From: a virus
Direction: 5' to 3' (one strand)
IMG/VR virus record: IMGVR_UViG_3300020582_000003
Coordinates: 1-36,812 of that record
DNA length: 36,812 nt
Below, piece by piece: positions 1,070 through 35,485 of the stretch. Position 1 is the first letter of the stretch. Each line of letters starts with the position of its first letter. Both the position numbers and the translations under genes were made by a program. The notes below the pieces were generated by a model. The model saw nothing but the letters and a program-made list of their open reading frames with translations. It did no database searches and had not been told where the DNA came from.

Positions 1070-1099
1070 GCGAAAGCGCCACTTACCGTGGCCTTTCGC
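1070..1099 (-). repeat. Junction hairpin, copy A (reverse orientation)
   Basis: Outer arms GCGAAAG/CTTTCGC (1070-1076, 1093-1099), unpaired C at 1077, inner arms GCCAC/GTGGC, loop TTACC. Read on the minus strand it matches the hairpin found upstream of other genes, with a compensated change in the inner stem. It lies between the 581-1057 and 1155-1919 genes in the opposite orientation to both. Confidence 0.85.
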
Positions 1100-1154
1100 T
1101 TGGGTCTGATAATCGCGATCGACTCCGGGTCGATCAGAAAGGAACCAAAACAAA

Positions 1155-1919
1155 ATGAAACTTCTGAAAAACGTAAAAAGATTTGCGCATTTGCAGGAAA
1201 TTTCGGCTCACGAAATCGGACGTCCCCGGTTCCGCCTGCGGAACATGCTGGCGGCCGGGCTCGGCGACTTCGTGGTCCAGCCGGAATGGGATTACTACGG
1301 CGTGGCCGTATCCACGGCGGTAGTGAAGCAAACCTTGTTCTCGATCGTGCAGAACAACAACTTCACCATCACCGGCGGCGCCACCGTGGCCAAAACCCTG
1401 CAGATGACGAGCATGGTGCAGCCGAACCAGTTGCAGGCTCCCGAACGCATGTTGGTCCGGGGCATCACCTGCGTGCTGGATAACCTCTGCAACCAGACCG
1501 ACGCCATCAAGTTCGGAAGCCAGACCATCGTGAACTTCTTCATCTCCACGAAGTCGTTCTTCGTGGTCGCGCACTTCCTGAAACTTCCGGCGGGTGGCGG
1601 CATCTGGGCGCAGCAATTCGGCGCCACGGCGGCCAATACCATCATCGGTCCGGTGGGCAACGGCATGCCGAGCGAGCATCAGGGATTCCGCCTGACGGAT
1701 CCCGGGTGCGACGGCACCCCGGGTATCGACCAGTTCCCGAACATCGACGGCATTTTGATCGCCCAGCAACAGGCGTTCAAAGTGGAAGTCGATCCGACGC
1801 TGGCGGCCTGGGCGCAGTCCACGGGATTCACCACCAACGCGAACAATACCGTGCCCATCGGCACCGGCATCAACGCGTGGGTGTATCTCGAGGGGCAGAA
1901 AGCGCGTGCGGTGCTCTAG
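1155..1919 (+). CDS. Candidate major capsid protein (jelly-roll type suspected)
   Basis: The 254-residue protein has no signal peptide and no clear membrane segment. A basic N-terminal arm (MKLLKNVKRF) precedes a beta-rich body with many Asn, Thr, Gly and Val residues. Residues about 85-108 contain a motif, T-x-M then QLQAP then V-x-x-I-x-C, which recurs in the proteins at 14702 and 15879, so the three are probably paralogues of one fold. The start has an AAAGGA ribosome site. It is flanked on both sides by junction hairpins in reverse orientation, the only gene in the circle so marked. The capsid role is inferred from size, position at the head of the structural genes and composition; no homologue can be searched here. 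Confidence 0.6.
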   Translation: MKLLKNVKRFAHLQEISAHEIGRPRFRLRNMLAAGLGDFVVQPEWDYYGVAVSTAVVKQTLFSIVQNNNFTITGGATVAKTLQMTSMVQPNQLQAPERMLVRGITCVLDNLCNQTDAIKFGSQTIVNFFISTKSFFVVAHFLKLPAGGGIWAQQFGATAANTIIGPVGNGMPSEHQGFRLTDPGCDGTPGIDQFPNIDGILIAQQQAFKVEVDPTLAAWAQSTGFTTNANNTVPIGTGINAWVYLEGQKARAVL

Positions 1920-2011
1920 TTGGCAGTCGAAGCTGTTCGGTAAAGGTTTCCTGGCAGGGCTTCGCACACCCCGCTGAATCCTTCATCGAGCAGCTTCGAT
2001 TCCCAACTTAT

Positions 2012-2046
2012 TTACCGCAAAAGCTCCCCTTACCGGGGACTTTTGC
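2012..2046 (-). repeat. Junction hairpin, copy B (reverse orientation)
   Basis: TTACC (2012-2016), outer arms GCAAAAG/CTTTTGC (2017-2023, 2040-2046), unpaired C at 2024, inner arms TCCCC/GGGGA, loop TTACC. Both stems differ from copy A but pairing is kept. It lies downstream of the capsid candidate, in reverse orientation like copy A. Confidence 0.87.
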
Positions 2047-2068
2047 TTGGAAGCCATTGCGGGCGATA

Positions 2069-2129
2069 GGCGCGAAGGCGTGCTCGCCCGCACGCATTAC
2101 ACCGGACGGTGGCGATCCGCCTTCGCGCC
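2069..2129. repeat. Long inverted repeat in leader of the 2170 gene
   Basis: GGCGCGAAGGC at 2069-2079 is exactly complementary to GCCTTCGCGCC at 2119-2129, enclosing a 39-nt loop with further local pairing (GGGCGA/TCGCCC). It ends 40 nt before the start codon at 2170 and would fold the leader RNA strongly. The stretch 1920-2169 holds only this, copy B of the hairpin and a weaker 9-bp inverted repeat; I see no gene in it. Confidence 0.6.
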
Positions 2130-2169
2130 CAACAAAACGGGCGCTTCGGCGCGACGTGGGGGAATTACG

Positions 2170-2655
2170 ATGTCAACGCAAGCGCCGGCACTGACGCAGG
2201 ATCAACTGAATTCGCTGCAGCAAGACCCGCAAATTATGGAGCTGGGCGGGCAGCTTTATATCGCCAAGCTGTTTCACTATATCGTCAATCTGGTGCACGC
2301 CGGGAACGACACGCAAAACCAATCGTTCCAGATTGATTCCGACGCCGATTTCCAGCTCCTGATGATGATGGCGACGTTCACGAGCAGCGCGCTCTCCATT
2401 CAGGTGACGGAGGGCAGCGCCGGCGGACTGGCCTGGCAAAGCGCCGCGGTGAACATCCTGAATTTCTGCGGCACGGCGCAGAATCCTTTCCCGGCGGGAA
2501 TGATTCCTCAGCTCATGCCGAAAAAGCGATCGTACAAAGTGACCACGATCGATACCAGCGGCAGCGCCAACACCGTGCAGGTGGATTTCTGGGGCTACAA
2601 GCTGTACCCGGCAGCCATGGCCGCGCAGCTCGGCGCATTGCCGAGTGGAAACTGA
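2170..2655 (+). CDS. Small beta-rich structural candidate, 161 aa
   Basis: The 161-residue protein begins with a polar Gln-rich helix, then alternates hydrophobic strands and turns, with a strand-rich C-terminal half ending in a D-F-W-G-Y-K-L-Y-P patch. There is no signal or membrane segment. The ATG at 2170 follows GGGGGAATT. Length and composition suit a single jelly-roll minor capsid or second capsid subunit, as in viruses with two small capsid proteins, but this is inference from layout. It is followed by similar-sized candidates at 2821 and 3575. Confidence 0.6.
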   Translation: MSTQAPALTQDQLNSLQQDPQIMELGGQLYIAKLFHYIVNLVHAGNDTQNQSFQIDSDADFQLLMMMATFTSSALSIQVTEGSAGGLAWQSAAVNILNFCGTAQNPFPAGMIPQLMPKKRSYKVTTIDTSGSANTVQVDFWGYKLYPAAMAAQLGALPSGN

Positions 2656-2663
2656 AGAAAAGC

Positions 2664-2695
2664 GTGACTGGTGATTTGTGACTGGTGACTGGTGA
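2664..2695 (+). repeat. Heptamer array R1 (GTGACTG family)
   Basis: Four tandem 7-bp units, GTGACTG, GTGATTT, GTGACTG, GTGACTG, then a terminal GTGAA. It lies 9 nt after the stop of the 2170 gene. The rest of the gap to 2820 holds an inverted repeat (GGCAGCGC/GCGCTGCC) and junction hairpin C. Confidence 0.9.
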
Positions 2696-2783
2696 AAAGG
2701 CAGCGCGCTCCGTCGCAGTGTTAACCTTGAGGATTTTCAGGCTTGTGGCCGCACGCGCTGCCGAGACGGAAGTATAGGAGAAA

Positions 2784-2818
2784 GCGAAAGGCCCTGGCAA
2801 GGGGCGCTTTCGCGGTAA
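2784..2818 (+). repeat. Junction hairpin, copy C
   Basis: Outer arms GCGAAAG/CTTTCGC, inner arms GCCCT/GGGGC with one G-T pair, loop GGCAA, unpaired G at 2806, followed by GGTAA. It ends 2 nt before the ATG at 2821, leaving no room for a normal ribosome site. Confidence 0.88.
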
Positions 2819-2820
2819 TC

Positions 2821-3324
2821 ATGATTAACCCTTGGACACAAGGAAGAGTGCCGGGCGTGCCGATGAATCCCACGCTGGGCGCATGGCTCGTCAAGCGCAA
2901 GATGGCTTCGCCGGCGTGGAGTATCCCGCAGTGGGTGCGGCTCTCGCTGCAAGGCGCGCACCTGTACTGGTATCAGTTCCCGGAGCTCACGCTCACCTCC
3001 GGGCAAACCGATCTAACGCGCGTGACCGTGAGCGAGGATTTCTGGGTCACGGCCATCATGGGGCGCGGATCGCGCGATTCCATCAACGGCCAGGGCAGTT
3101 TCCGTTTCCAGATCACGGAAGATTTGGGCGCGTACAAATATTCGAAGTACGGCCAGAATCAAGGCAACTTTGCGCCCACGGCGCTCGAGCCGGGATTGAT
3201 TCGCTTCCCGCACTTCATCCCGGCCGGATCGCCCGTGGTCTGCAAGATTCAAAATCTGGACGGCAGCCACACGAACATCGTGGACCTGTGCATGTTCGGA
3301 TACTCGACGTGGTGGAGACAATAA
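2821..3324 (+). CDS. Small beta-rich structural candidate, 167 aa
   Basis: The 167-residue product has a Pro/Trp-rich N-terminus, a central segment around EDFWVTAIMGRGSRD, a segment with polar strands, then a conserved-looking RFPHFIPAGSPVVCKI stretch and an aromatic C-terminus (YSTWW). Pattern and size suit a jelly-roll virion protein. It has no signal or membrane segment. The start codon is separated from the preceding hairpin by only two bases, so translation initiation probably depends on that structure. Function is inferred only from neighbours (2170, 3575). Confidence 0.6.
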   Translation: MINPWTQGRVPGVPMNPTLGAWLVKRKMASPAWSIPQWVRLSLQGAHLYWYQFPELTLTSGQTDLTRVTVSEDFWVTAIMGRGSRDSINGQGSFRFQITEDLGAYKYSKYGQNQGNFAPTALEPGLIRFPHFIPAGSPVVCKIQNLDGSHTNIVDLCMFGYSTWWRQ

Positions 3325-3327
3325 AAC

Positions 3328-3359
3328 GTGACTAGTGACTGGTGACTGGTGACCCGTGA
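3328..3359 (+). repeat. Heptamer array R2
   Basis: GTGACTA, GTGACTG, GTGACTG, GTGACCC, then GTGA. The last GTG (3356) is the start codon of the next small gene. Confidence 0.9.
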
Positions 3360-3517
3360 ATCCACTCGACGAACTGATCGCCATCATCGATGGGCACTGG
3401 GGATTCCCAAGCGATACAGCCGCCCAAAACGTGCGGGACTGGGCGCGGGACAAATCGCCCGCCGAAATTGCGGAGATGCTGCGCAAGTCGCGCATTCAGC
3501 AGCAGAGTCCCCGGTAA
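3356..3517 (+). CDS. Small acidic-basic helical protein, 53 aa
   Basis: The reading frame starts at the GTG ending the heptamer array and encodes 53 residues with two likely amphipathic helices, one around DELIAIIDGHWGF and one around SPAEIAEMLRKSR. It has an Asp/Trp-rich centre. The stop codon TAA lies inside the next junction hairpin (its loop GGTAA), so both ends of this gene are formed by repeats. Codon use and a coherent helical pattern support it as real. It may be a small regulator or assembly factor; I do not recognise a family. Confidence 0.6.
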   Translation: MNPLDELIAIIDGHWGFPSDTAAQNVRDWARDKSPAEIAEMLRKSRIQQQSPR

Positions 3518-3562
3518 GCCTTCGGCAAGAAGGCTCAGGCTAAAGGGGCGCTTTTGCGGTAA
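3509..3562 (+). repeat. Junction hairpin, copy D, with loop insertion
   Basis: CCCC (3509-3512) pairs with GGGG (3545-3548) and the outer right arm CTTTTGC is at 3551-3557, followed by GGTAA. The left outer arm is degenerate because it is coding sequence of the 53-aa gene. The loop carries an extra segment, 3518-3544, which itself folds (GCCTTC/GAAGGC). The same insertion, base for base, is present in copy K at 35441-35467. The ATG of the next gene is 12 nt downstream. Confidence 0.85.
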
Positions 3563-3574
3563 GAAAGTAAAATC

Positions 3575-4288
3575 ATGGCCTACGACAAACTTTTCGCCGA
3601 TCCTTCGGACGCAGCGGGAGAACCGAACGTGACGGATGCCGCTGCCTCTTCGATTCGCGCGTCCACGTGGCCGTACAGCCGCTACGCGAACGTGAACCTT
3701 GGCCCGAAACTGCTCCTGCGTCCGCCGCCATCCCCGGCCACTACGGACGATCCGCTGATCGCATCAGTCAACGATTTACAGGCGGTGATGCAGCAAATCC
3801 AGCGCGCCACGCGGCTGATTTCCGCGCCCTGGCTGATCGAGCCGCCGGATTCGGAATCGTTTCATCGTTCCGCAGGCATCGCCCTGCCCGCGATCAGCGC
3901 CACTACGTTCACCACCGTGCTTTCCGTGCTCTGCCCTCCCGGCCGCAACGGCGTGATCAAGAAAATCGCCAACGTGATCGTGGGCGGCGCATGGGCGGAC
4001 TTTTCCGGGGACGCCGTATGGCAAATCGTGCGCAATCCCGGCGCGCAGGCGAACGTGGGCGGCTACGCGGAACGGAACTACGAAAACATTCAGGCATCCC
4101 TCGGCCTGATCAATCAGCCCACGCAGATTTCCGGCATCCGCATCTTTGAAAACGACATTATCCAGTGGGTGGTGCGCAACAACGCGCTGCCCACGAACAC
4201 GAGCGCCGGCGCGCTCTTGAGCGGCTATTTCTATCCGCGCACCTGGGACGATCAGTTCGACGCGGCGGATAACCCGGTGGCGTGGTGA
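3575..4288 (+). CDS. Structural candidate, 237 aa
   Basis: The 237-residue protein begins MAYDKLFADPSD, has a Pro-rich linker near residues 48-60, a helical segment (about 62-90), then a beta-rich C-terminal domain with CPPGRNGVIKKIANVIVGG and a strand pair around ISGIRIFENDIIQWVVRN. That C-terminal pattern of strands, Gly turns and a late YFYP is what a jelly-roll or decoration protein would show. There is no signal or membrane segment. It is the last gene before the secreted spikes, so a vertex or spike-base protein is one possibility. This is inference. Confidence 0.6.
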   Translation: MAYDKLFADPSDAAGEPNVTDAAASSIRASTWPYSRYANVNLGPKLLLRPPPSPATTDDPLIASVNDLQAVMQQIQRATRLISAPWLIEPPDSESFHRSAGIALPAISATTFTTVLSVLCPPGRNGVIKKIANVIVGGAWADFSGDAVWQIVRNPGAQANVGGYAERNYENIQASLGLINQPTQISGIRIFENDIIQWVVRNNALPTNTSAGALLSGYFYPRTWDDQFDAADNPVAW

Positions 4289-4323
4289 GCGAAAGGCCCC
4301 GGTAAGGGGCGCTTTCGCGGTAA
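4289..4323 (+). repeat. Junction hairpin, copy E
   Basis: Perfect consensus form: arms GCGAAAG/CTTTCGC and GCCCC/GGGGC, loop GGTAA, unpaired G at 4311, followed by GGTAA. It begins at the stop codon of the 3575 gene. Confidence 0.92.
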
Positions 4324-4334
4324 AGGAAGTCGAA

Positions 4335-4369
4335 GCGAAATGCCCCGGTAAGGGGCGCTTTCGCGGTAA
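4335..4369 (+). repeat. Junction hairpin, copy F (tandem with E)
   Basis: A second copy 11 nt after copy E, identical except for T instead of G at 4341, giving one mismatch in the stem. It is the only tandem pair and precedes the spike cassette. A GGGAGGCAAGGAA ribosome region and a GTG start at 4394 follow. Confidence 0.92.
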
Positions 4370-4393
4370 AGAAGAGGCAGGGAGGCAAGGAAC

Positions 4394-5560
4394 GTGGCAC
4401 GAAAACTACACATCCCCAAGGCGGCCCAGATTCGTGGTCTCCGCAAAGCCATCGCCAATCGCAAGACGCCGCGGCAATTCCTTCCCTCGCTGAAAAAGCG
4501 CCTGGCGAAGCTGACGGCGGTTTTTATCCTTGCCTCCTGCCTCCTGCCTCTTGCTTCCATTCACGCGCAGGCTCCCGTCTCGATCGTACCCACGCAACAA
4601 ACGCTAGCCCCTGCCGGCACGGCCTGCACCGGCTCCGCGCAGACGTTCACGGTGCAGAACCGAAACCAGACGCAGCACTACGCGTACGCCGCATCGACGC
4701 TCATCACGAACCTGACGATGAAGATTCAAGGTATCGATGCGATTGGCGACGTCTACACCATTTCCGATCTACTGGCCACCTCGTCGAGTACGGTGGGTGG
4801 CAGTCAGGCTCTCCTGGGCAGCGGATATTTCCCCACAGTGCAAGTCGTGATCACGTGCTTTCCCGCGGTTACGGGGTCATTTGAGCTTAGCTACGCCGGC
4901 GCTCAGGCCACTACAAATGTGAACGTGGGGAGTTATCTCGTTTCTCAGGCAGACAAGGCTTTTGCGCTCGCGGCGCCCGCAGCAACATCCTATAGCGTCA
5001 ATTTTTTCACTCCTCCATTTGTCAATTCCTATGGGCTTGTCACCTTTGCGTACACGGGCGCGGGGCCAACGGGTTCCACGGTCACCGTGCAATGCCAAAA
5101 TGAAGTCGGCTTAGGCCCGCTCTTCACTTTCAATTTGGCGACCACGACTTTGGTAACACAGTCGTTTCCCGTTCCCGCCGGCCCGTGCTCCACGGTTTCA
5201 GTCGCGTACAATCCTGGCGGCGCATCAGCTTCGACCTATAATTTCGACTACTTTTTCATCTCTCCGGGCACGTCGCAAAACAACATCTACACGCACATCC
5301 CGGGCACGACGGCCACCGTCGTGAAGGCTGGCCCGGGCGTGGTGCATACCGTCGTGGTAGGCACGCCCGCAGCGGGCACGATCAGCCTGTTTGACCTGGC
5401 ATCCGCGAGCTGCACGGGCACGCCCGCGACGAACGTGGTTTCCGTGATCACGGCCACGTCCACGTTTCCCGCCGCGCCGGAAATTTACGACGTACTGTTC
5501 AATAACGGCATCTGCGTGAAGGCCAGCGCCACGATGGACATCACCATCTCAAGCCAGTAA
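4394..5560 (+). CDS. Secreted beta-rich spike or adhesin-like protein
   Basis: The 388-residue protein has a long basic N-region (about 40 residues), a hydrophobic core around residues 41-55 and an Ala-x-Ala-type end (HAQA), which reads as a Sec signal peptide. The rest is Thr/Ser/Ala/Gly-rich and strand-forming, with paired Cys residues, as in exported binding proteins. The C-terminal 75 residues form a compact module (GVVHTVVVG through ITISSQ) like those ending phage spike or decoration proteins. The GTG start follows GGGAGGCAAGG. It leads a three-gene cassette of exported proteins. The signal-peptide core is encoded by tandem TGCCTCC-like heptamers (4529-4561). Confidence 0.65.
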   Translation: MARKLHIPKAAQIRGLRKAIANRKTPRQFLPSLKKRLAKLTAVFILASCLLPLASIHAQAPVSIVPTQQTLAPAGTACTGSAQTFTVQNRNQTQHYAYAASTLITNLTMKIQGIDAIGDVYTISDLLATSSSTVGGSQALLGSGYFPTVQVVITCFPAVTGSFELSYAGAQATTNVNVGSYLVSQADKAFALAAPAATSYSVNFFTPPFVNSYGLVTFAYTGAGPTGSTVTVQCQNEVGLGPLFTFNLATTTLVTQSFPVPAGPCSTVSVAYNPGGASASTYNFDYFFISPGTSQNNIYTHIPGTTATVVKAGPGVVHTVVVGTPAAGTISLFDLASASCTGTPATNVVSVITATSTFPAAPEIYDVLFNNGICVKASATMDITISSQ

Positions 5561-5569
5561 AGGAATCCC

Positions 5570-7873
5570 ATGAAAAATAAAATTCTCGCAGTGGGCTTTT
5601 TCCTTGCTTCCTGCCTCCTGCTTCCAGCGCCGAGCTACGCGCAGTTCACCACCGTCACGGCCACGGTACAGGATCCCAACGGCATCCCCTACGCCGGCGC
5701 GGTGCTGAATGCGGTGCTGGTACCCAGCACGGGAGGCGGCTACACGCTCAGCGGACAGCCTTACTCCGGACGCATCGGTCCGGTGACGCTTGATTCCGCT
5801 GGTAAATTCACCGTGAATTTCGGGGACGTCACACTGATTACTCCCGGCAGTCCGCAATGGCAGATCACCATCGATTCCGCCGCAGCCACGATCGCTGGGC
5901 CGCTGGGCACCGGCCCTCAATCCTTCACGTACACGAGTACGGGCACCACGATCAGCGGCAGTTCGCCCGTAAGCCTAACTACGGCGCTGAACGCCCTCGC
6001 ACCTAAGCTGACGAACTTCGCCAGCGGCGGATCGGGAACGGTTACTAGCATTGCTGCGACTTCTCCCGTAGTCGTCACGCCCAATCCGATCACGGCAACA
6101 GGCACGATTTCTTGTCCCACCTGCAGCACGAGCTCTTCCACGGTGCCGATCAATCAAGTGGTATCGGCCACGGGAGCGATAACGCCAATCGCCCTAGGGT
6201 CAAACACTTTAGAGTTCGACTGCGCGACGCCAAGCCCAACATATTGCGAGATTTTCGGGGAAACGAGCGCATCTACTTCTGGTCGGATCGTGGAAATCAC
6301 CACGCTCACCGGGTCCGCAGCTCAGCCGCTTTCCATCACTCCAGGTGCGGCAGGACCGGCAGGCGCGAACGCTCCCAATTCGATAGGGATTACCGGGCAG
6401 GCAGGTGGTGCCGCTGGTACATCGCAAAACGGTTTCAGTGGCTCAGGTATTTTTATTCAGGCAGGTGCAGGATCTGCTGGAGGCGCCACTTCTGGGAACG
6501 GTGGAACAGGCGGCACTTGGACACTCGGCGGTGGGAATGGAGGGGCGGCAGGTGGTTCTTCTGGGAATAACGGTGGAAATGGAGGGGTTGTCAATTGGGG
6601 AATCGGTGCAGGTGCGAATGGAGCTGCAACGGGCAACGGAGGAAATGCAGGATCATTTAACGTCCTGGCTGGTAACGGCGGCACTGGTGGAGCAACATCC
6701 GGCACTGGTGGGGCGGGGTCGGATTTTATAGTCAACACTGGCGTTGGTGGCGGTGCGACGGCTGGAAGTACATCCGGCCGCGGCGGGACCGTCACATTCA
6801 ATATTAGCGGTGCCGGTGTAACCGGGACTGCTGGAGTTCCGGGAAAATTTCTGATCAGCCGATCAGGGCCTACGGGATCTACTACTACCCCACTTCTTGA
6901 TGTCGTTGATACTTGGAATACGTCCGGCGTTGTAGATGCGCTGATACGCGCAAACGTGACAACTGATACCGCATCAGGCGCTGGCAGTTTATTACTGGAT
7001 TTACAAGATGTCGGGTCGACTAAATTCAGCGTCGATAAGGCGGGAAATATTGTAGGCAATGCACTGAACACGATTCCGGTCAGCACCGGACAGCGTTCCG
7101 TAGCAAGTAGCGTTGCTGTAGGCCCTTCCGCATTGGCGGCAAATGGTTCGGGCACGGACACTCAGGAAACCGCTGTGGGCGTTGGCGCCCTTGGTGCCGA
7201 AACAGGATCAGCAGGAGGGGGAAACTCTGCTGCTTTTGGCTGGCATGCCTTGATTCTTCAAAACGGAAGTAATGGAAATAATGCAGCCTTTGGAGAATTA
7301 GCGCTCGGAAGTCTGACGACCGGAAATAATGACACTGGGTTTGGCCGGGGAGCTTGCTTCAACTTAACAACTACAAACAACAATACTTGCGTTGGTTCGA
7401 CAAACAACCTGGGAGCAGCAACAGATTCAAATGAAACAGTGATCGGAGCCACAGCTACAGGAGCGGGGTCTAATACCGCGACTATAGGCAATGCGAGCGT
7501 AACCGATGCGTATTTTGGGAGTTCGACACCTACTGCGGTTGTCCACGCAAAGGGTTTCAACACAGCGACGAATTGCAGTTCTAGTGCATCTCCAGCCGTA
7601 TGCGGATCGGCAGCTGCGGGCAGCGTGGTGATCGCCGCCGCGGGCACTACGGTGACCGTGAACACTACGGCAGTGACCGCCAATAGCCAAATTTTCCTGC
7701 TCGCGGATGACACTTTAGGAACGAAACTGAGCGTGACTTGCAATAGTACACTCGCCACGCTGATCGGCGGTCTGGCCGTCACGGCGCGGACGGGCGGCAC
7801 GAGCTTCCAGATCACCAGCGGAGCAACTCCAGCCGTCAATCCGCTTTGCCTGAGCTATTTCATCGTAAATTGA
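5570..7873 (+). CDS. Exported spike with Gly-rich shaft and YadA-like repeats
   Basis: The 767-residue protein has a Sec signal peptide (cleavage expected after PSYAQ). Residues about 24-185 form a module nearly identical to that of the next gene, beginning FTTVTATVQDPNG. Residues about 260-425 are Gly/Asn/Thr-rich repeats. Residues about 510-655 contain YadA/trimeric-autotransporter-head-like repeats (AVGPSAL, AVGVGAL, AAFGWHAL, AAFGELAL). A C-terminal 100-residue domain with Cys pairs ends the protein. This is a typical layout for trimeric fibres that bind receptors. A Sec signal on a phage fibre is unusual and suggests assembly at or outside the membrane. The ATG follows AAAGGAATCCC. Confidence 0.8.
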   Translation: MKNKILAVGFFLASCLLLPAPSYAQFTTVTATVQDPNGIPYAGAVLNAVLVPSTGGGYTLSGQPYSGRIGPVTLDSAGKFTVNFGDVTLITPGSPQWQITIDSAAATIAGPLGTGPQSFTYTSTGTTISGSSPVSLTTALNALAPKLTNFASGGSGTVTSIAATSPVVVTPNPITATGTISCPTCSTSSSTVPINQVVSATGAITPIALGSNTLEFDCATPSPTYCEIFGETSASTSGRIVEITTLTGSAAQPLSITPGAAGPAGANAPNSIGITGQAGGAAGTSQNGFSGSGIFIQAGAGSAGGATSGNGGTGGTWTLGGGNGGAAGGSSGNNGGNGGVVNWGIGAGANGAATGNGGNAGSFNVLAGNGGTGGATSGTGGAGSDFIVNTGVGGGATAGSTSGRGGTVTFNISGAGVTGTAGVPGKFLISRSGPTGSTTTPLLDVVDTWNTSGVVDALIRANVTTDTASGAGSLLLDLQDVGSTKFSVDKAGNIVGNALNTIPVSTGQRSVASSVAVGPSALAANGSGTDTQETAVGVGALGAETGSAGGGNSAAFGWHALILQNGSNGNNAAFGELALGSLTTGNNDTGFGRGACFNLTTTNNNTCVGSTNNLGAATDSNETVIGATATGAGSNTATIGNASVTDAYFGSSTPTAVVHAKGFNTATNCSSSASPAVCGSAAAGSVVIAAAGTTVTVNTTAVTANSQIFLLADDTLGTKLSVTCNSTLATLIGGLAVTARTGGTSFQITSGATPAVNPLCLSYFIVN
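5637..6120 (+). repeat. Duplicated N-terminal spike module, copy 1
   Basis: This stretch is highly similar in DNA and protein to 7945-8430, covering the region after the signal peptide up to the TISCPTCST segment of each spike. It is a recent within-genome duplication or a recombination target that allows exchange of the different C-terminal parts. Confidence 0.85.
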
Positions 7874-7881
7874 GGAACTTA

Positions 7882-10314: not shown

Positions 10315-10356
10315 AGAAGTAGGAGTACGATAGAGGAACAGGAAACTGAGGGCCAT

Positions 10357-10620
10357 GTGGCAGACGGACTGTTTGGGAAAACATTTCCGCCAAAATGTGA
10401 TTTCAAGATGGCGGACGGAACCGATTGCCCCGTGCCCGCTTCGCATTTCTGGGGTCCGGTGAAGTCGTGCTGCACGCACTTTGAGGAATTCGCCCTCAGC
10501 TTGTTGCGATTAGACAAACTGCCGCACGACGCCAAGCACATCGACATCGTAGAGGAATACAATCGCCAGTGCGGGCGCACGTCCGTGATTCCCGGAACGA
10601 AATGCGAATCGAATGACTGA
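10357..10620 (+). CDS. Small Cys-rich protein, 87 aa
   Basis: An 87-residue protein with six Cys (CDF, CPV, a CC pair, CGR and CES) and several His, which suggests metal binding or disulfides; there is no signal peptide. The GTG start follows a GAGG; an internal ATG at residue 18 is the alternative. I do not recognise the family. The stop is immediately followed by junction hairpin G. Confidence 0.6.
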   Translation: MADGLFGKTFPPKCDFKMADGTDCPVPASHFWGPVKSCCTHFEEFALSLLRLDKLPHDAKHIDIVEEYNRQCGRTSVIPGTKCESND

Positions 10621-10656
10621 GCGAAAGGCTCCCGGCAAGGGGCGCTTTCGCGGTAA
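10621..10656 (+). repeat. Junction hairpin, copy G
   Basis: Arms GCGAAAG/CTTTCGC, inner GCTCC(C)/GGGGC with an extra base and one mismatch, loop GGCAA, unpaired G at 10644, then GGTAA. It lies directly after a stop codon and before heptamer array R3. Confidence 0.87.
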
Positions 10657-10658
10657 GA

Positions 10659-10690
10659 CTGACTCGTGATTGGTGACTGGTGACTAGTGA
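10659..10690 (+). repeat. Heptamer array R3
   Basis: CTGACTC, GTGATTG, GTGACTG, GTGACTA, GTGA. The GTG at 10680 in the fourth unit is the in-frame start of the next gene. Confidence 0.9.
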
Positions 10691-10910
10691 AACCCTTTCA
10701 CTTCTAGGAGCGGCGGCCGGCGGGATCTTCGGCGCGGGGGTGGCATGGGCTACGATGCGCGCGCGGTTGAACAAAACCGCCGGTGATGTAAACGGTCTGG
10801 GACGAAAATATGGACGGTCGATCGCATTTCAATTGCGCGCGTTGGCCGAGGATGAACCGATCAACAAACGCAAGCTGATGCACCTGGCGGACTTGATTGA
10901 TCCCAGATAG
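10680..10910 (+). CDS. Small single-pass membrane protein, 76 aa
   Basis: A 76-residue protein with an N-terminal hydrophobic Gly/Ala segment (LLGAAAGGIFGAGVAWATM, residues about 8-26) and a basic, then acidic cytoplasmic helix. Only one frame is open from the array; its GTG (10680) is inside the heptamer repeat. It could be a lysis-related or virion membrane protein. The stop overlaps the TTG start of the next gene. Confidence 0.65.
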   Translation: MTSETLSLLGAAAGGIFGAGVAWATMRARLNKTAGDVNGLGRKYGRSIAFQLRALAEDEPINKRKLMHLADLIDPR

Positions 10911-11096: not shown

Positions 11097-11143
11097 GGCA
11101 AGAGGGTTACAACGTCTGTTCTGTTTTGCACAGGAGACAAAGC

Positions 11144-11689: not shown

Positions 11690-11724
11690 CTGGTGATTCG
11701 TGACTGGTGACTCGTGATTAGTGA
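11686..11724 (+). repeat. Heptamer array R4
   Basis: GTAACTG, GTGATTC, GTGACTG, GTGACTC, GTGATTA, GTGA. The first unit holds the upstream stop; the next gene starts at ATG 11734. Confidence 0.9.
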
Positions 11725-11733
11725 AAAAACCTA

Positions 11734-21893: not shown

Positions 21894-21949
21894 TTACCGC
21901 AAAAGCGCCTCGTTTTTGTCGCACTCGCCGTACGAGCCGGGGCCTTTTG
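21894..21949 (-). repeat. Junction hairpin, copy H, with enlarged loop
   Basis: On the minus strand: CAAAAG/CTTTTG outer arms, GGC/GCC inner arms, an extra ACGAG/CTCGT stem in an enlarged loop, then the unpaired G, CTTTTGC and GGTAA. It ends 3 nt before the ATPase ATG (21890). It has the consensus orientation with respect to the gene. Confidence 0.8.
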
Positions 21950-21954
21950 TTCTC

Positions 21955-22302
21955 CTATCGCGATACTCTGATATTCGCCTCAGGATTCTGCTCGAACGCT
22001 GCGAGTACTCGCCTCAGCCACGGGAACGCATGTTCCGCAAGTCCCCAGCCGTTCGGGGAATTCAGCTTTTCATATTCGGCGTAATTCTTTTCGAAGTCGG
22101 CTACGCCGGCGCGGAGATCTTCAATGTAATCGGAAGCACGCTTCCCGTCGCTCTCGTAGAGTGCGTCCCAGACGCCCGCCTTCTTCCACATCTTCCCTAG
22201 ATTGTGGGTGATATTCGCGGTAAACACTTCCGTGCCGCCGTGAAGAGCGCCACCATAATGCGGGCAGGACGTTGGAGTTTCGAGACTGATGTCCAGGCTC
22301 AC
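21955..22302 (-). CDS. Conserved phage-type protein, 115 aa
   Basis: A 115-residue protein with SCPHYGG, VFTANITHNLGKMWKKAG and a C-terminal WLRRVLAAFEQNPEANI. The NITHNLxxM pattern recalls a family of hypothetical phage proteins known from actinophages and others; function unknown. The start at GTG 22302 is chosen because it overlaps the previous stop as GTGA; the frame stays open further upstream, but that region codes the 57-residue gene below. Confidence 0.7.
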   Translation of the reverse strand: MSLDISLETPTSCPHYGGALHGGTEVFTANITHNLGKMWKKAGVWDALYESDGKRASDYIEDLRAGVADFEKNYAEYEKLNSPNGWGLAEHAFPWLRRVLAAFEQNPEANIRVSR

Positions 22303-23141: not shown

Positions 23142-23153
23142 CGGTTTATCCTT

Positions 23154-24872: not shown

Positions 24873-24874
24873 AG

Positions 24875-28495: not shown

Positions 28496-28553
28496 GGTTG
28501 CCAGGACGAAACCGGGGCGCCGCCTGGCAAGGTTGAGCGCCCCAGCTTCTTTC

Positions 28554-28588
28554 TTACCGCGAAAGCGCCCCTTACCGGGGCCTTTCGC
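28554..28588 (-). repeat. Junction hairpin, copy I
   Basis: Perfect consensus on the minus strand: arms GCGAAAG/CTTTCGC and GCCCC/GGGGC, loop GGTAA, unpaired G, then GGTAA. It lies 58 nt upstream of the start of the PAPS-reductase-like gene, with the orientation of the gene. Confidence 0.9.
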
Positions 28589-28728
28589 TCTAACGAACTT
28601 GATCGTTCGCGCGCGGCGCGCACGACAAGCGGAGACGAAGCTACGGTATTCCTAGTACGCGGTCAAGAAAAAATAGGCGGCTGTGTCCAAAGAGTTTGTG
28701 GAAAAGCTGTGCGGAAGTGGGAAAAGAC

Positions 28729-28893
28729 CTAGTAGCGGATGATGACGGCACTCTCTTCGGCGTCATATTCAATTACGGTTTCATCCGTGATGCTGAATCC
28801 AAAATAGGGGTCGATGGTCTCAATTGCGACAGGTTTGTCTTGCGGAAGGGATTTCAGTCGTTCAATCAGTTCTGCAACGGTCAATGGTTTCAC
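28729..28893 (-). CDS. Small acidic protein, 54 aa
   Basis: A 54-residue protein: a helix (TVAELIERLKSLPQDKPVAI) then acidic strands (FGFSITDETVIEYDAEES). The GTG start is the last unit of heptamer array R12. The pattern (LTVAELIERLK...P.D.PV) is frequent in small phage proteins. The 28589-28728 stretch after it shows only a DnaA-box-like TTTTCCACA (minus strand, about 28696-28704) and a CGAAC/GTTCG inverted repeat. Confidence 0.65.
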   Translation of the reverse strand: MKPLTVAELIERLKSLPQDKPVAIETIDPYFGFSITDETVIEYDAEESAVIIRY

Positions 28894-28921
28894 GAGTCAC
28901 CAGTCACGAGTCACGAGTCAC
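28890..28921 (-). repeat. Heptamer array R12
   Basis: TCAC, GAGTCAC, CAGTCAC, GAGTCAC, GAGTCAC. The minus-strand terminal GTGAAA is the start of the 54-aa gene. Confidence 0.9.
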
Positions 28922-28930
28922 GAAATAATT

Positions 28931-29049: not shown

Positions 29050-29256
29050 CTAGACGGGCCGAACTACAACGCCTTCGACGTAAACAGGCGTCTTGCATCG
29101 CAGACAATACGTGTATCCGATGGGGATTCTTCGCCCGACGTAGTGCAGTATCATGCCGGGCATCGGCACGTCGCGCGAAGGGATTTCGATAATCATGTCA
29201 TCGCGGATCACCGCGTCGTGTGCCTTGAAAGCGCAAACGAGCCAAGCGAGCTTCAC
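29050..29256 (-). CDS. Small zinc-ribbon-like protein, 68 aa
   Basis: A 68-residue protein: LAWLVCAFKAHD at the N-terminus, a middle with DMIIEIPSRD and GRRIPIGYTYCLRCKTPVYV, so one CxxC pair plus an early Cys. The GTG start is the last unit of heptamer array R13. Similar short proteins (CAFKAHDW...CxxC) occur in phages. Function unknown. Confidence 0.65.
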   Translation of the reverse strand: MKLAWLVCAFKAHDAVIRDDMIIEIPSRDVPMPGMILHYVGRRIPIGYTYCLRCKTPVYVEGVVVRPV

Positions 29257-29291
29257 GGGTCACCAGTCACCAATCACTAGTTACGAATCAC
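29253..29291 (-). repeat. Heptamer array R13
   Basis: TCAC, GGGTCAC, CAGTCAC, CAATCAC, TAGTTAC, GAATCAC. Read on the minus strand, the upstream gene's TGA stop (29290-29288) lies in the first unit and the next gene's GTG start (29256) in the last. Confidence 0.92.
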
Positions 29292-30711: not shown

Positions 30712-31593
30712 ATGACATTACTCTTTCGCGCAGCGATGACGAGGTGCACGATGCACCCCATGGGAATTTTTACGACCGAGGCGCCCGGAGTTTTGTATTC
30801 CGCGGCGCTGCAATCCGGCGATGACGGCACGGCGCAAACCATCGCCATGCTGCGCAACCTCGTGGACTCCGCATGGAAAGACCCGTTAGTCAATCGCACC
30901 GCCATCGAAATCATCCGCAACGCCGGCGTGCAGCCCTTCGACCTGTGGGGCCAGGTGCGCGCGATTTACAATTACGCGCGCTCGTTCTACTTCGTGAACG
31001 ATCCCATCACCAAGGAAGCCGTCCGCCCCACGCGCGACCTTCTGGAACTGAAAGCCGGGGACTGCGACGACATCAACGGAAATGTTTTGCCCGCGTTACT
31101 TGGCACGATTGGATTTGAAGTGCGCCTCGTCACCGTGGCCAGCGACCCGAACATGCCCGACGTTTTCTCGCACGTCTATTGCGAAGCCTTCATTGATGGC
31201 CAGTGGTACCCCCTGGACGCCGCGCGCCCGAACGCCACGATCGGCGTAGCGCCGTCGTTCTTCTATCGCCGCGCCTGGTGGAGTCTCTCCGACGATTCCT
31301 ACGGCGACTACTCGAGCGACGAAGCCGGTCAAATGGCCGGGTATCGCCCGCAAACGGTACGCGGACTCGGCAGCGTCACTTCCGATGTGGCCGCGATCCT
31401 CACGGACGCATCCGGCGCGCTGAAATCCGTGGGCGGGCAGACGGTGCAGCAAGTGCTCGGCCCGGCGATCGGCCCCGGCGGAAGCGCGCAGATGACGCCG
31501 CCGGCCGCGCAGCCGTTTCTTTCCAGCGGTATCGGCGAATTGCTGGTGGTGGGCGCGATCGTCGGTGGCCTATGGCTCTTGTTCAAAGACTGA
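30712..31593 (+). CDS. Transglutaminase-like protein with C-terminal membrane anchor
   Basis: A 293-residue protein with the transglutaminase/cysteine-protease fold: AGDCDD (Cys118), FSHVYCE (His154), WYPLDA (Asp169) give the triad. An RGLG motif follows near residue 215, and the protein ends with a hydrophobic segment (GELLVVGAIVGGLWLLF) and KD. It may process or cross-link the membrane-anchored virion proteins encoded after it. The start could be ATG 30712 or ATG 30760. A separate 41-residue frame from ATG 30699, with a better ribosome site (GGAGT), overlaps it. Confidence 0.78.
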   Translation: MTLLFRAAMTRCTMHPMGIFTTEAPGVLYSAALQSGDDGTAQTIAMLRNLVDSAWKDPLVNRTAIEIIRNAGVQPFDLWGQVRAIYNYARSFYFVNDPITKEAVRPTRDLLELKAGDCDDINGNVLPALLGTIGFEVRLVTVASDPNMPDVFSHVYCEAFIDGQWYPLDAARPNATIGVAPSFFYRRAWWSLSDDSYGDYSSDEAGQMAGYRPQTVRGLGSVTSDVAAILTDASGALKSVGGQTVQQVLGPAIGPGGSAQMTPPAAQPFLSSGIGELLVVGAIVGGLWLLFKD

Positions 31594-31595
31594 TC

Positions 31596-32522
31596 ATGGC
31601 TTACGCCGCACTCTCAACGCGAAACGAAAACGGGATGACTCCCGGACTGCGCGGCCTCGGCTTCCTCGGCGATTCGTCTCTGCCACTTTCTCCCACCGAC
31701 GCGATCAATGCCGCGATCAAAGCCTATTCCGGTTCACACCTGAATCCCAAGCAAACGCAAAATCAAGCCTGGCTCGCCGCGGCGGAATCCGCCGTGGCCA
31801 ACGCCAATATCGACGTGACCGGCGGATTCGGCCCGGACTGCACCGGGCAAACCGCGCAGCCGCTGAATCTTTTGCAGACGGCCAGCGGCATTGGACTGAG
31901 CGCGGCGGGCGCGACAACGGGCGTCCTCGCCGCCACCAGCTTGATTCCCGCGGCGGCGGTGCCCGTGGTGGGCTGGGTGATCGCCGGCGTCGGCGCGATC
32001 ATCGGCATGATCGAAGCGATTTTCCAGCATCACGCGCAGGCCGTGAAGCGCGACCTGGCTTTCGGCTGCTCGGCGATCCCCGCGGTAAACAACGCCATGG
32101 CCGTGATCATCAAGGGCGTGCAGGACGGAAATATCCTGCCCGCCGACGCGGCGAATTCGTTGCAAACGGTTTACTCGCAGTTCATGGCGGCGGGCGGGGC
32201 GTCGGGCAGCGCGTCCGGCCCGGGCGGAATTCCAAGCGGCGGCAAAGCCATCAACGATTCGCCGTTCTGCAATTCCAATTGCGAGCTGAGCCTCGTGGTG
32301 TACGCCATGGTCCTCTACTGGACCGCGCAATTCCAGGCGCAGGCCGCGCAAGCGGCAGCCGTGGCTGCGGAATCCGCCGCACAGAGCGGCACATCGCAGG
32401 GCGGGTCCGGCGTTCCGGGCATCTTTGCGCCAGCGCCTGCGGGCGCTTCCGGATTGTCCGCGATTCCCGCATGGGCATGGATCGCGCTCGCCGTAGCCGG
32501 CGCCTGGGCGGTGGCCGGATGA
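31596..32522 (+). CDS. Membrane virion-type protein, 308 aa, RGLG motif
   Basis: The N-terminus MAYAALSTR then GLRGLG is shared with the next genes. Residues about 88-145 are long, hydrophobic and Gly/Ala-rich (two segments, IPAAAVPVVGWVIAGVGAII), and the Ala/Gln-rich C-terminal part ends with a final hydrophobic helix (AWAWIALAVAGAWAVAG). Two Cys pairs are present. It starts two bases after the previous stop. This is the kind of layout expected for an inner-membrane virion protein. Confidence 0.68.
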   Translation: MAYAALSTRNENGMTPGLRGLGFLGDSSLPLSPTDAINAAIKAYSGSHLNPKQTQNQAWLAAAESAVANANIDVTGGFGPDCTGQTAQPLNLLQTASGIGLSAAGATTGVLAATSLIPAAAVPVVGWVIAGVGAIIGMIEAIFQHHAQAVKRDLAFGCSAIPAVNNAMAVIIKGVQDGNILPADAANSLQTVYSQFMAAGGASGSASGPGGIPSGGKAINDSPFCNSNCELSLVVYAMVLYWTAQFQAQAAQAAAVAAESAAQSGTSQGGSGVPGIFAPAPAGASGLSAIPAWAWIALAVAGAWAVAG

Positions 32523-32525
32523 TTT

Positions 32526-32557
32526 TCACCAGTCACCAGTCACCAGTCACCAGTCAC
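32526..32557 (-). repeat. Heptamer array R14
   Basis: TCAC plus four perfect CAGTCAC units between the 31596 and 32572 genes, in minus-strand orientation although both genes are on the plus strand. Confidence 0.9.
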
Positions 32558-32571
32558 GGGGTTTCTTCCTG

Positions 32572-32904
32572 ATGGCCTACGCGCGGCTCAATACGCGAAA
32601 CATCAATGCGCTACACCCTAACCTGCGGGGACTCGGCGCGTACGCCGCGCTATCGACGCGCGAGGATGCGGGCTTGCGGCCGGGCATGCGTGGCCTCGGC
32701 GATTCGCCGCTGACGAATATTTCCTTCGGCCCGGGCGGGCAGTTCGCCATCAGCACGGCCACGGTGCCCACGCAGACGAGCCTTTGGGATCAGGCACTGA
32801 CGTGGATGGGGCAGTCGACGTTCATTCCCGGCATGCCTAATTCGATTTTCGCCATCGCCGCGGGAGTTTTTGTCGTGGCCAAAGTTTTCGGAGGGCGCCG
32901 CTAG
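32572..32904 (+). CDS. Small tail-anchored protein with duplicated RGLG motif
   Basis: A 110-residue protein. The motif is present twice: MAYARLNTRN...LRGLG and then AYAALSTRE...MRGLGDS (residues about 24-44), the second copy being closer to the previous gene's N-terminus. A Gly/Ser/Thr-rich linker follows, and it ends with a hydrophobic segment (SIFAIAAGVFVVAKVF) and GGRR. The signal is probably a targeting or interaction tag. Confidence 0.68.
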   Translation: MAYARLNTRNINALHPNLRGLGAYAALSTREDAGLRPGMRGLGDSPLTNISFGPGGQFAISTATVPTQTSLWDQALTWMGQSTFIPGMPNSIFAIAAGVFVVAKVFGGRR

Positions 32905-32921
32905 GCCCCGGTAAGGGGCCT
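32903..32921 (+). repeat. Junction hairpin, copy J (short form)
   Basis: AGGCCCC/GGGGCCT with loop GGTAA; only the inner stem remains. It overlaps the stop codon of the previous gene and is 12 nt before the ATG at 32934. Confidence 0.78.
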
Positions 32922-32933
32922 CGGATATAAAAG

Positions 32934-33713
32934 ATGGCATACGCTGCGCTAGACTCGCCGCTTCCCGGACTCACCGTTTCGCCCACGGGCGAGCGGTGCT
33001 GTGGAGTCCGCGGCTATCAGCCCGGCGCGCACGCGCTGCTCGGCATGCTGGGCGACACTCCGATTTTCGATACATCGTCCACCGATCCTACAGGCAGCCT
33101 GATCGATCCCACCGCCATCGATCAGCCAGCGCCGATCATCGACCTGACGCCGCCCGTCGAAACGCTTCCGCCGATCGTTGACACCACGGCGCTGCCGCTG
33201 CCGAATCAGCTTTCCCCATCGGTTTATTCCAGCTATCCCTCGAGCGTGGGCACGGAGTTCACCAGCAACGGCGATGGCACCTACACGAACATTCAGACGG
33301 GCCAGACGGTTCCTTACAACATCGCCGAACAAATCAGCGCGGCCACGGCGGGCGCGCCGGCGGTGGATACCACGGCCACGGGACAGAACCTGACCATCAC
33401 CGATGCCAGCGGCGCGACGTCGAGCGTCAACACGAACAACCTCACCGTGGCGGCGCAGGCGCTGCAGGCCGCCGGCCAGCTCGTGAACGCCGCTGGAAAA
33501 CTCACGGCGCAAGGCCAGGCGCTCTTGAACGGCGGAAATCTGTACAAGCCCGCTCCGGTGAGCACGAATCCGTTTTCCGGCGCCATGAGTTCGCTGACGT
33601 CATGGTTTTCCGGTTCCACTGGCGGCTTCCCGAACGTGGCGATCCTGGGCGTAGGACTCGCGGCGGTGTTCATCCTTCCGTCGATGATGTCCGGAAAAAA
33701 GAGGCGACGGTGA
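32934..33713 (+). CDS. Tail-anchored virion-type protein, 259 aa
   Basis: The N-terminus MAYAALDSP leads to GYQPGAHALLG and LGD, a motif also in the 34336 gene. Then comes a long Thr/Pro/Ala-rich middle (residues about 60-190). It ends with a hydrophobic segment (NVAILGVGLAAVFILPSMM) and a GKKRRR tail. Positive charges after the segment suggest the end lies on the cytoplasmic or, in a virion, the DNA side. Preceded by hairpin J. Confidence 0.7.
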   Translation: MAYAALDSPLPGLTVSPTGERCCGVRGYQPGAHALLGMLGDTPIFDTSSTDPTGSLIDPTAIDQPAPIIDLTPPVETLPPIVDTTALPLPNQLSPSVYSSYPSSVGTEFTSNGDGTYTNIQTGQTVPYNIAEQISAATAGAPAVDTTATGQNLTITDASGATSSVNTNNLTVAAQALQAAGQLVNAAGKLTAQGQALLNGGNLYKPAPVSTNPFSGAMSSLTSWFSGSTGGFPNVAILGVGLAAVFILPSMMSGKKRRR

Positions 33714-34336
33714 TAGCAATAAACGACGTTCGCCTTGGTGCCGCGCTTTCCGTCGATCCGCTCGCGCGGATGTCCCCGCCGGATTATCGAATCATGCAGC
33801 CAAGCCCGATTCGCACGTTTCCCGTCACAGCGGCGCCGCCCACGGCTACGCCGCCGGAACCGCTGCAAAAGCCCGTGCCGCCGATCGAAGTCGGCGCGCC
33901 GATTCAAGTATCCACGGGATCGACGGGGGGATCGACGGGGGGATCGACGGGCGCGCCCGCATCTGGCGCGCTGCCCATCGACGTTTCAAACATCATCGAT
34001 CCCGTCACGGGAGTGACCTACGCGGGATATCTCACGCAGGACGCGCAAACGCTTTACCAATCCGGCTCGCTCCTAACCGGCGGAAATGTACTCACGCCGC
34101 AAGGATCCGCACTGGCCGCACAGGGGGACTTGATTCAGGGCACGCCCGCGCCCTCGCCCGCGCAATTTGCGCAAGCGCAACCTGCGGCCGCGGCGCCTGG
34201 CACGGATTTCTTTTCTTCCCTGATGAATTGGCTCACGGAGGAAACGCTGTGGACCGGCGTGCCCAACGGAGTCCTGGCCGCCGGCGGCGTAATCGCCGCG
34301 TCCTGGATGTTCGGGAAGAAACGAGGGCGCCGCTGA
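33710..34336 (+). CDS. Tail-anchored virion-type protein, 208 aa
   Basis: The GTG start overlaps the previous stop by four bases. The N-terminus is Pro-rich (residues about 20-65); a tandem Gly-Ser-Thr-Gly repeat comes from 12-bp repeats (about 33919-33952). A Gln/Ala-rich linker follows, and it ends with a hydrophobic segment (GVLAAGGVIAASWMF) and GKKRGRR. It resembles the 32934 protein in its second half (GGNVLTPQGSALAAQG versus KLTAQGQALLNGGN), so the two may be paralogues. Confidence 0.7.
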   Translation: MIAINDVRLGAALSVDPLARMSPPDYRIMQPSPIRTFPVTAAPPTATPPEPLQKPVPPIEVGAPIQVSTGSTGGSTGGSTGAPASGALPIDVSNIIDPVTGVTYAGYLTQDAQTLYQSGSLLTGGNVLTPQGSALAAQGDLIQGTPAPSPAQFAQAQPAAAAPGTDFFSSLMNWLTEETLWTGVPNGVLAAGGVIAASWMFGKKRGRR

Positions 34337-35157
34337 TGCTGTTCCCGAATCATCCCGCATATGCTGAGATTCGCGCCGGCATGGGCGACCTGGGATATCA
34401 GCCGGGCGCGCACGCACTCTTGGGTTACACCGCGCCCGCGCATGATCTTGGGGACTTCTCCGCATCGATGGAAAACGCCGCCGTTGACGCGGGCTATTCC
34501 ATTAACGACATTCAACTTTTGAACGCGCTGGGCGCGACGGATCAGGATTTGACGAACCTGATCAATGGCAACATCACGCTCACCGCGCTCTACGCGCAGT
34601 ACGGCGTCACGATTCCCGGCGGCGGTGGAGTCGTTCCCACTACGGCCACAAACACGCCCGTGACGCCCGCATCGGCCTCGATTACGCCCGCGCCGCCATC
34701 GCAGCCGCAGGGCCAGCTTCCCACCGGCAGCCAGTTCAGCTACACCGGCGGATGGAGCCCGATTCACGGCAGCGTGGGCGACGTCCAAGCGGCGCTCAGT
34801 TCCAAACTGCCGGGCAGCGGCATGCAGCTCGTGGCGTTCAACTCCACGGGATCATCGCTGCTGGGCGTGGGCACGGCGGGATTCACGGCTACAGTCGCCG
34901 TCACGGGCGTAGGCTTCGCGCTACTCAGCGATGCGCAATCCATCGTGGTGACCATCGTGCAAAGCGTGATCGGCACGGGCAACCTGACCACGAATCAGAT
35001 TTCGCTCGTTTCCACGCCGTCGACGCCCGCGGCAGTGGCCGCCGCAAACGCAGCGGCGGGCAATCCGATCGTCTGGCTCGAATCGAACGCCATCTACATC
35101 GCCGCGGCGGTCGCGGGTTTGGTTTTTCTGAACAATTTCACGGGGAAGCGCCGATGA
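34336..35157 (+). CDS. Tail-anchored virion-type protein, 273 aa
   Basis: The start overlaps the previous stop by one base (TGATG). The N-terminus contains GYQPGAHALLG (also in the 32934 gene) and a short helix-rich part with LLNALGATDQDLTNLING. A Pro/Thr linker leads to a domain (SPIHGSVGDVQAALSSKL) rich in strands, and the protein ends with a hydrophobic segment (AIYIAAAVAGLVFLNNF) and TGKRR. It may be a trans-envelope or vertex protein. Confidence 0.7.
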   Translation: MLFPNHPAYAEIRAGMGDLGYQPGAHALLGYTAPAHDLGDFSASMENAAVDAGYSINDIQLLNALGATDQDLTNLINGNITLTALYAQYGVTIPGGGGVVPTTATNTPVTPASASITPAPPSQPQGQLPTGSQFSYTGGWSPIHGSVGDVQAALSSKLPGSGMQLVAFNSTGSSLLGVGTAGFTATVAVTGVGFALLSDAQSIVVTIVQSVIGTGNLTTNQISLVSTPSTPAAVAAANAAAGNPIVWLESNAIYIAAAVAGLVFLNNFTGKRR

Positions 35158-35210
35158 CTTCACATCCGAAACCGCACCATCATCCAGCACCCGTACATAA
35201 GGAGAAAGCC

Positions 35211-35420
35211 ATGAAGATCGAAGAGTTTCAACCCGGCGATGAAGTGCTCGTCAATGAAGGCGGCAGCGAAATCGAGGGCGTAGTGCGCTCCATCCAACTG
35301 GTCAAGAATCTGGTGGACGTGCAGCTTTACAAGCAAGGCCACCTGAAACACGGACTGACCGTGGCGTTCCCGCCGGAACAGGTGAAATTGCGCAGCCACG
35401 AAAAGGCGGCGAGCGCCTAG
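35211..35420 (+). CDS. KOW/SH3-like small protein, 69 aa
   Basis: A 69-residue protein with a beta-barrel-like pattern: FQPGDEVLVNEGGSEIEGVV, then VDVQLYKQG and FPPEQVKL. ATG 35211 has AAGGAG 7 nt upstream. A longer form from ATG 35154 (88 aa, His-rich start) would overlap the preceding stop as ATGA. It probably binds nucleic acid or a protein partner. Confidence 0.65.
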   Translation: MKIEEFQPGDEVLVNEGGSEIEGVVRSIQLVKNLVDVQLYKQGHLKHGLTVAFPPEQVKLRSHEKAASA

Positions 35421-35423
35421 TGA

Positions 35424-35485
35424 GCAAAAGGCCCCGGTAAGCCTTCGGCAAGAAGGCTCAGGCTAAAGGGGCGCTTTTGCGGTGA
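35424..35485 (+). repeat. Junction hairpin, copy K, with loop insertion
   Basis: Arms GCAAAAG/CTTTTGC and GCCCC/GGGGC, unpaired G at 35473, loop GGTAA plus the same 27-nt insertion as copy D, then GGTGA. The GGTGA includes the possible GTG start (35482); ATG 35494 follows. Confidence 0.9.

Follow-up and report, generated by a model that had tools for sequence, protein, structure and literature searches.

Gene junctions of one small group of uncultured dsDNA viruses, whose hosts are probably bacteria, harbour a dispersed family of hairpin-forming elements. The stems of these elements covary strongly, most copies share the orientation of the neighbouring genes, and the sites that they occupy differ even between close relatives. 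Our preferred interpretation, to which we assign a probability of about 0.52, is that the elements represent an RNA hairpin cassette peculiar to this clade, able to spread from one gene junction to another and active when translation of the downstream gene is initiated.

The window, i.e. the whole stretch of viral DNA that was analysed, is a record of 36,812 bases whose two ends carry a direct repeat of 127 nt, which is consistent with a circular assembly. A covariance model (R1) built from seven simple copies recovered 11 elements in it, the same number as in the original prediction: seven simple hairpins, three loop-extended forms and one mini-form (Table 1). Scores of the seven simple copies are 60-66.5 bits, with E <= 7e-14 across all sources; the four weaker elements are degenerate or loop-extended. 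Nine of the 11 are in sense orientation, in agreement with the nine copies previously described as equally oriented to the next gene, and only the two at 1065 and 2012 run against the neighbouring genes. The stems, the unpaired G on the 3' side and the 3' GGTAA are likewise as first described. The GGTAA loop was also described correctly but is not invariable: in copies D, H and K the loop contains a nested second hairpin, itself tipped by GGYRA.

Table 1. Hairpin elements and Shine-Dalgarno (SD)-like motifs in the window. Effective spacing is the distance with the helix removed.
Feature	Position	Strand	Form	Score (bits) or basis	Context
Copy A	1065..1100	-	simple; GCGAAAG GCCAC GGTAA GTGGC G CTTTCGC	61.6	antisense, 54 nt upstream of MCP-like gene; inner pair covaries CG->AT
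Copy B	2012..2047	-	simple; GCAAAAG TCCCC GGTAA GGGGA G CTTTTGC	61.4	antisense; MCP-like gene on one side, next gene on the other
AGGAG	2776..2780	+	SD-like	sequence	directly 5' of copy C
Copy C	2783..2818	+	simple	62.6	between AGGAG and ATG 2821, 2 nt after element; SD-ATG spacing 40 nt linear, 10 nt effective
Copy D	3501..3562	+	degenerate 5' arm; nested loop hairpin GCCTTC GGCAA GAAGGC	27	ATG 3575 follows by 12 nt; 55-nt match with copy K
Copy E	4288..4323	+	simple; consensus hairpin	66.5	first A is final base of upstream TGA stop
Copy F	4334..4369	+	simple; tandem partner of E, one mismatch	62.8	24 nt before GTG 4394
Copy G	10620..10656	+	simple; GCGAAAG GCTCCC GGCAA GGGGC G CTTTCGC	60.7	overlaps upstream stop
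Copy H	21894..21951	-	nested loop CGTAC GGCGA GTGCG	34.3	3 nt before ATG of ATPase-like gene (19494-21890, -); SD-ATG spacing 61 nt linear, 9 nt effective
AGGAG	21952..21956	-	SD-like	sequence	directly 5' of copy H
Copy J	28554..28589	-	simple; consensus hairpin	66.5	PAPS-reductase-like gene (27641-28495, -) follows 58 nt downstream
Mini-form	32903..32921	+	AGGCCCC GGTAA GGGGCCT	19.6	12 nt before ATG 32934; site occupied likewise in relatives G004 and G006
Copy K	35423..35485	+	nested loop hairpin GCCTTC GGCAA GAAGGC	45.5	foot GGTGA 8 nt before ATG 35494

Ten more viruses, 34-37.5 kb in size, came to light when 2.9 million viral contigs were scanned by pattern and by protein; their MCP-like protein is 85-99% identical, and DNA identity is 75-97% over the alignable parts. 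Nine of the ten carry the element, and the window virus and its relatives together possess 58 copies. The number per genome varies from 11 in the window virus (G000) to 0 in a complete-looking relative (G009), which remained empty with all search filters off. Among the 2.9 million contigs, a relaxed hairpin pattern revealed no copy in viruses outside the clade, plasmids and named phages gave nothing beyond partial chance matches, and an Rfam 15 covariance-model search of the window produced no match at E <= 1. Scattering of the hairpins over host chromosomes, which had been named in advance as a finding that would speak against a regulatory element, was not seen: one exact IUPAC pattern, run against 84,980 genomes of bacterial and archaeal species, had no match. 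Alignment of the MCP-like protein to bacterial genome contigs detected no provirus, and no relatives of the virus were found among named phages. The name 'MCP-like' is a label given from conservation and position: neither this protein nor the ATPase-like and neighbouring proteins have a match in Pfam or PHROG, the ATPase-like protein has no sequence match in PDB, and the AlphaFold model of the MCP-like protein has a pLDDT of 27. Gene functions named in the original prediction, such as 'virion', are for the most part putative.

The consensus of the element reads A-GCGAAAG-GCCCC-GGTAA-GGGGC-G-CTTTCGC-GGTAA, and its simple form has a predicted RNA folding energy of -22.9 kcal/mol (z -4.3). Covariation was evaluated for the 12-bp structure as originally named on 31 distinct simple copies with 500 shuffles. 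Pairing is kept in 98.1% of cells, and 6 of the 12 pairs display two-sided changes (e.g. GC to AU in 8 copies and GC to UA in 9). The 23 double-change cells observed compare with 5.4 +- 1.7 in the shuffles, none of which scored as high, and slid registers reach at most 0.073 versus 0.241 for the named register. The compensatory changes between the arms that had been reported for the window are thereby corroborated, and the covariation expected across related genomes is strong. A strand test for selection on RNA versus DNA, which compares G-U with A-C mismatches, gave 9 to about 5, in itself no proof that selection acts on RNA and not on DNA. Reduced copies also occur: G002:34992 has kept the inner stem and GGTAA alone and G001:13982 the outer stem and GGTAA alone, and in both cases the hairpin is still perfect. 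The loop-extended forms possess unrelated nested stems (CGCAC/GTGCG or GCCTTC/GAAGGC) with GGCGA, GGTGA or GGCAA at the tip. Since the apical GGYRA is constant across stems of differing sequence, the sequence of the loop appears constrained in its own right. Other strong hairpins of these genomes are located mostly inside genes and form no comparable family.

A map of homologous genes places the copies between conserved genes. About 20 of them begin no more than 3 nt from the stop codon of the gene upstream, and their first base is commonly the A of TGA, according to a table of stop and start distances where some starts are misassigned owing to spurious overlapping ORFs. Orientation was classed by hand from the same map, because such ORFs make the intergenic fractions derived from stop-to-stop ORFs unreliable, and amounts to 51 sense against 7 antisense copies (p = 2e-9 if independent). 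This and the other p-values overstate independence, because the copies are paralogous and partly orthologous. An ATG is found within 12 nt downstream in 29 of the 58 copies, none of them antisense, compared with a background of 16%; about half of the copies have no ATG within this distance.

The arrangement of the close starts is distinctive. In 12 copies, representing only about eight distinct junctions, the ATG follows GGTRA by 2-3 nt, which leaves no room for an SD sequence. Directly 5' of the hairpin, however, GGAG is present in 10 of these 12 copies versus 14 of the 46 others (Fisher p = 0.002), with a background for the SD core of 7.6% per 14 nt. Measured to the nearest ATG, start codons being predicted, GGAG and ATG are 40-61 nt apart in the linear sequence; once the helix is removed, nine copies have a spacing of 8, 9 or 10 nt and the tenth has one of 14. 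Further copies with an ATG at 5-12 nt also combine an SD sequence 5' with a start 3' of the hairpin, and copies with an ATG at 7-11 nt often have TAAGGA or GGTGA in their 3' tail. The original prediction that the close starts have no normal ribosome site is only half right: copies C and H have an AGGAG immediately 5' of the hairpin.

Occupancy varies among the relatives at nearly every junction. For example, the junction ahead of the ATPase-like gene is empty in G002, with stop and start overlapping in CGCG-ATGA, and in G000 and G001 TAGGAG, the hairpin and GGTAAAC are inserted between the same bases. Similarly, the g06/g07 junction is filled in G010 and empty in G008 (flanks 92-98% identical), the g37/g38 junction is filled in G004 and empty in G006 (92-96%), and at g01/g02 a simple loop in G006 corresponds to a nested loop in G004 (96-98%). 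Copy K (G000:35423-35485) and G001:760-822 are near-identical loop-insert copies at non-orthologous sites, and the 3' tails GGAAGTC and nnCTGAC are found again at unrelated junctions. The element thus moves, or turns over, among gene junctions. Because sites turn over, about half of the copies are more than 12 nt from a start and G009 is devoid of the element, a need for it in many operons is unsupported, and a mobile component must be added. The original proposal of a cis-acting RNA element is partly supported, as a role in translation fits best with the SD-hairpin-ATG geometry, but the sites are not conserved regulatory positions.

The mechanism that we propose would operate on the mRNA. The cassette begins at or near the upstream stop codon and ends in GGTRA; in vivo it would fold into a stem of 12 bp that has a bulged G and is capped by a GGYRA pentaloop. 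Where the ribosome-binding site is split, the SD sequence immediately precedes the stem and the start codon comes 2-3 nt after GGTRA, so that folding would shorten the distance between them from 40-61 nt to about 8-10 nt. Other classes would rely on a short tail, GGTAAGGAAGTC-ATG or GGTGAnnCTGACC-ATG, with its own SD-like TAAGGA or GGTGA. The hairpin would accordingly act in translation initiation; since it would fold aside, its insertion between SD and AUG could be tolerated or exploited. By replacing overlapping ATGA junctions, the element may in addition uncouple initiation at the downstream gene from translation of the upstream one.

A precedent exists in phage T4, where genes 25 and 38 have a split ribosome-binding site (Nivinskas 1999; Malys and Nivinskas 2009; reviewed in PMC3014915). 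There, too, a hairpin between SD and AUG restores a functional distance, from 27 to 11 nt in gene 25 and from 22 to 5 nt in gene 38 (PMC3014915), which resembles the change from 40-61 to about 8-10 nt in the present viruses. The T4 cases, however, were shown by experiment, and each hairpin was described at its own gene, whereas the clade hairpins are predicted from sequence and form a related family with a common loop at many junctions, polymorphic among relatives. They would be a dispersed, spreading version of a device known only from single T4 genes. If this is true, the helix-bridged ribosome-binding site, a curiosity of single T4 genes, exists as a spreading junction family. The natural empty and filled, simple and nested-loop, and compensatory alleles would then be a ready test set for the relation between SD-AUG structure and translation, and would equally be useful for studying the evolution of phage junctions from overlapping to insulated. 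A more far-reaching version, which we consider doubtful, is that a mobile SD-hairpin-start module copies itself between junctions and, by way of recognition at its conserved GGYRA loop, subjects many genes to a single RNA-binding protein or to ribosome-level control, forming a dispersed translational regulon. To our knowledge, no regulon of this kind has a precedent in viruses.

Alternatives to the translation-initiation reading are grouped here under the heading ALTERNATIVES. The one that survives best, although we hold it to be somewhat unlikely, is a functionless DNA hairpin (REP/MITE-like) that spreads selfishly or passively and is tolerated only between genes, its structure being kept through transposase- or replication-linked recognition of the folded single strand. 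Site polymorphism, the near-identical loop-insert copies at non-orthologous sites, the tandem copies E and F and the uneven amplification, from 0 in G009 to 11 in G000, are all to be expected from such an element. Indeed, the REP/REPIN sequences associated with RAYT transposases (PMC2817692, PMC3116915, PMC3733652) are also short imperfect palindromes that are extragenic, multicopy and mobile. The clade hairpin nevertheless differs from them in being strongly sense-oriented, tied to start codons and, as far as searched, confined to one virus clade. Its foot has the consensus GGTRA, with the GTAG tag in 1 of 58 copies, and the Y1 transposase of RAYT (Y1_Tnp, PF01797) is present in none of the 11 virus genomes, compared with 5 of 14 control genomes, a result for virus genomes only, from which the genome of the host may differ. 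High chromosomal copy number was likewise not found with the one exact pattern used for bacterial genomes. Moreover, a selfish hairpin does not predict the 5' GGAG with its nearly constant effective spacing of 8-10 nt, and the 51:7 orientation bias would follow from it only if insertion were directed to one strand.

An element for mRNA processing or stability, which would shield the upstream message at its 3' end or be cut by RNase III/E and thereby set the relative output of neighbouring genes, is in our judgement improbable. A very stable stem (-22.9 kcal/mol) directly after the stop in about 20 copies and the sense bias would suit this function, but the near-constant distance to the ATG and the 5' GGAG of the close class are left unexplained.

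We give little credence to a DNA-level protein-binding site (an operator, stoperator or promoter-associated palindrome) repeated over the genome, even though the copies are near-palindromic DNA, numerous in short intergenic regions and comparable to the repeats of Cluster O and Cluster K phages. A site recognized in duplex DNA is unlikely because the stem drifts with compensation and offers no fixed binding sequence; unrelated nested stems share only the loop, and sigma-70-like sites are not enriched in 900-11100 (5 found versus 4.6 expected). Cluster O mycobacteriophages possess a 17-bp dyad repeat with invariant arms, no meaningful orientation and many copies inside genes (PMC4351075). With more than 30 copies per phage genome it is a multicopy palindrome like the clade hairpin, which differs in its varying arms, its orientation and its position between genes. 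The nearest phage-wide analogue are the start-associated sequences (SAS/ESAS) of Cluster K mycobacteriophages (Pope 2011, PMC3203893), dispersed repeats at the translation starts of many genes, which occur in one phage clade, mostly in one orientation, and about half of which are accompanied by an inverted repeat. For ESAS, RNA pairing is poorly supported according to the authors, and sites are well conserved between genomes (PMC3203893), whereas pairing of the clade hairpin covaries strongly and its sites turn over. The SAS 13-mer GGGATAGGAGCCC occurs here at chance level (one match with 2 mismatches versus 0.95 expected), so that the motif counts as absent.

Finally, intrinsic transcription terminators between operons, as might be suggested by GC-rich hairpins following stop codons, are largely refuted by the missing U-tract (a T-run after the stem in 0 of 58 copies), terminator-like sites in 900-11100 being not above chance (10 versus 12.4) and copies being located within gene clusters, just ahead of starts.

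These viruses, whose genomes are circular and 34-37 kb long, seem to form a group that has not been described before; neither their conserved ATPase-like protein nor the one labelled MCP-like from conservation and position had a match in Pfam or PHROG. Among the relatives, G009 (L037, L038) looks complete, with a 77-nt terminal repeat, and no copies of the hairpin were found in it, which suggests that viruses of this type can do without the element.

Besides the hairpin, the window has a second dispersed repeat family, made of tandem heptads, which occupies many junctions between genes and occurs on either strand; the repeat includes the Shine-Dalgarno-like motif GGTGA. Judging from exact matches to one pattern (26 in the window genome versus 0-4 in ten relatives), the heptad repeat was amplified recently in the window genome. 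It sometimes follows a hairpin copy (10620 in the window; G001:8863 in a related virus). The distinct hairpin upstream of the PAPS-reductase-like gene also adjoins a main-family copy in another relative (G003:19831).

Repeats, conserved proteins and the shared 5' region in the window
Feature	Positions	Strand	Remark
Heptads (GTGACTG)n	2663-2697, 3327-3361, 10660-10692, 11682-11733, 13142-13175, 22467-22507, 22890-22924, 23150-23186, 24127-24164, 24506-24540, 28886-28922, 29252-29287, 32523-32558		
Distinct hairpin	28510-28545	-	GGGGCGCTCAACCTTGCCAGGCGGCGCCCC
ATPase-like	19494-21890	-	Walker-A-like GQTQLSGKT
MCP-like	1155-1919	+	
Shared 5' region	5638-5937, 7941-8240		300 bp, 85% identity

The adjoining large genes 5570-7873 and 7882-10314, whose shared 5' region encodes a signal-peptide-like N-terminus, look from their sequence like duplicated spike or adhesin genes. 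Further along, a run of proteins (30718-35157) has the common N-terminal motifs MAYAALST.. and GLRGLG and hydrophobic C-terminal segments, a pattern resembling that of some membrane-containing tailless phages. The tested members had no Pfam match except for 30718-31593, with a transglutaminase-like core.
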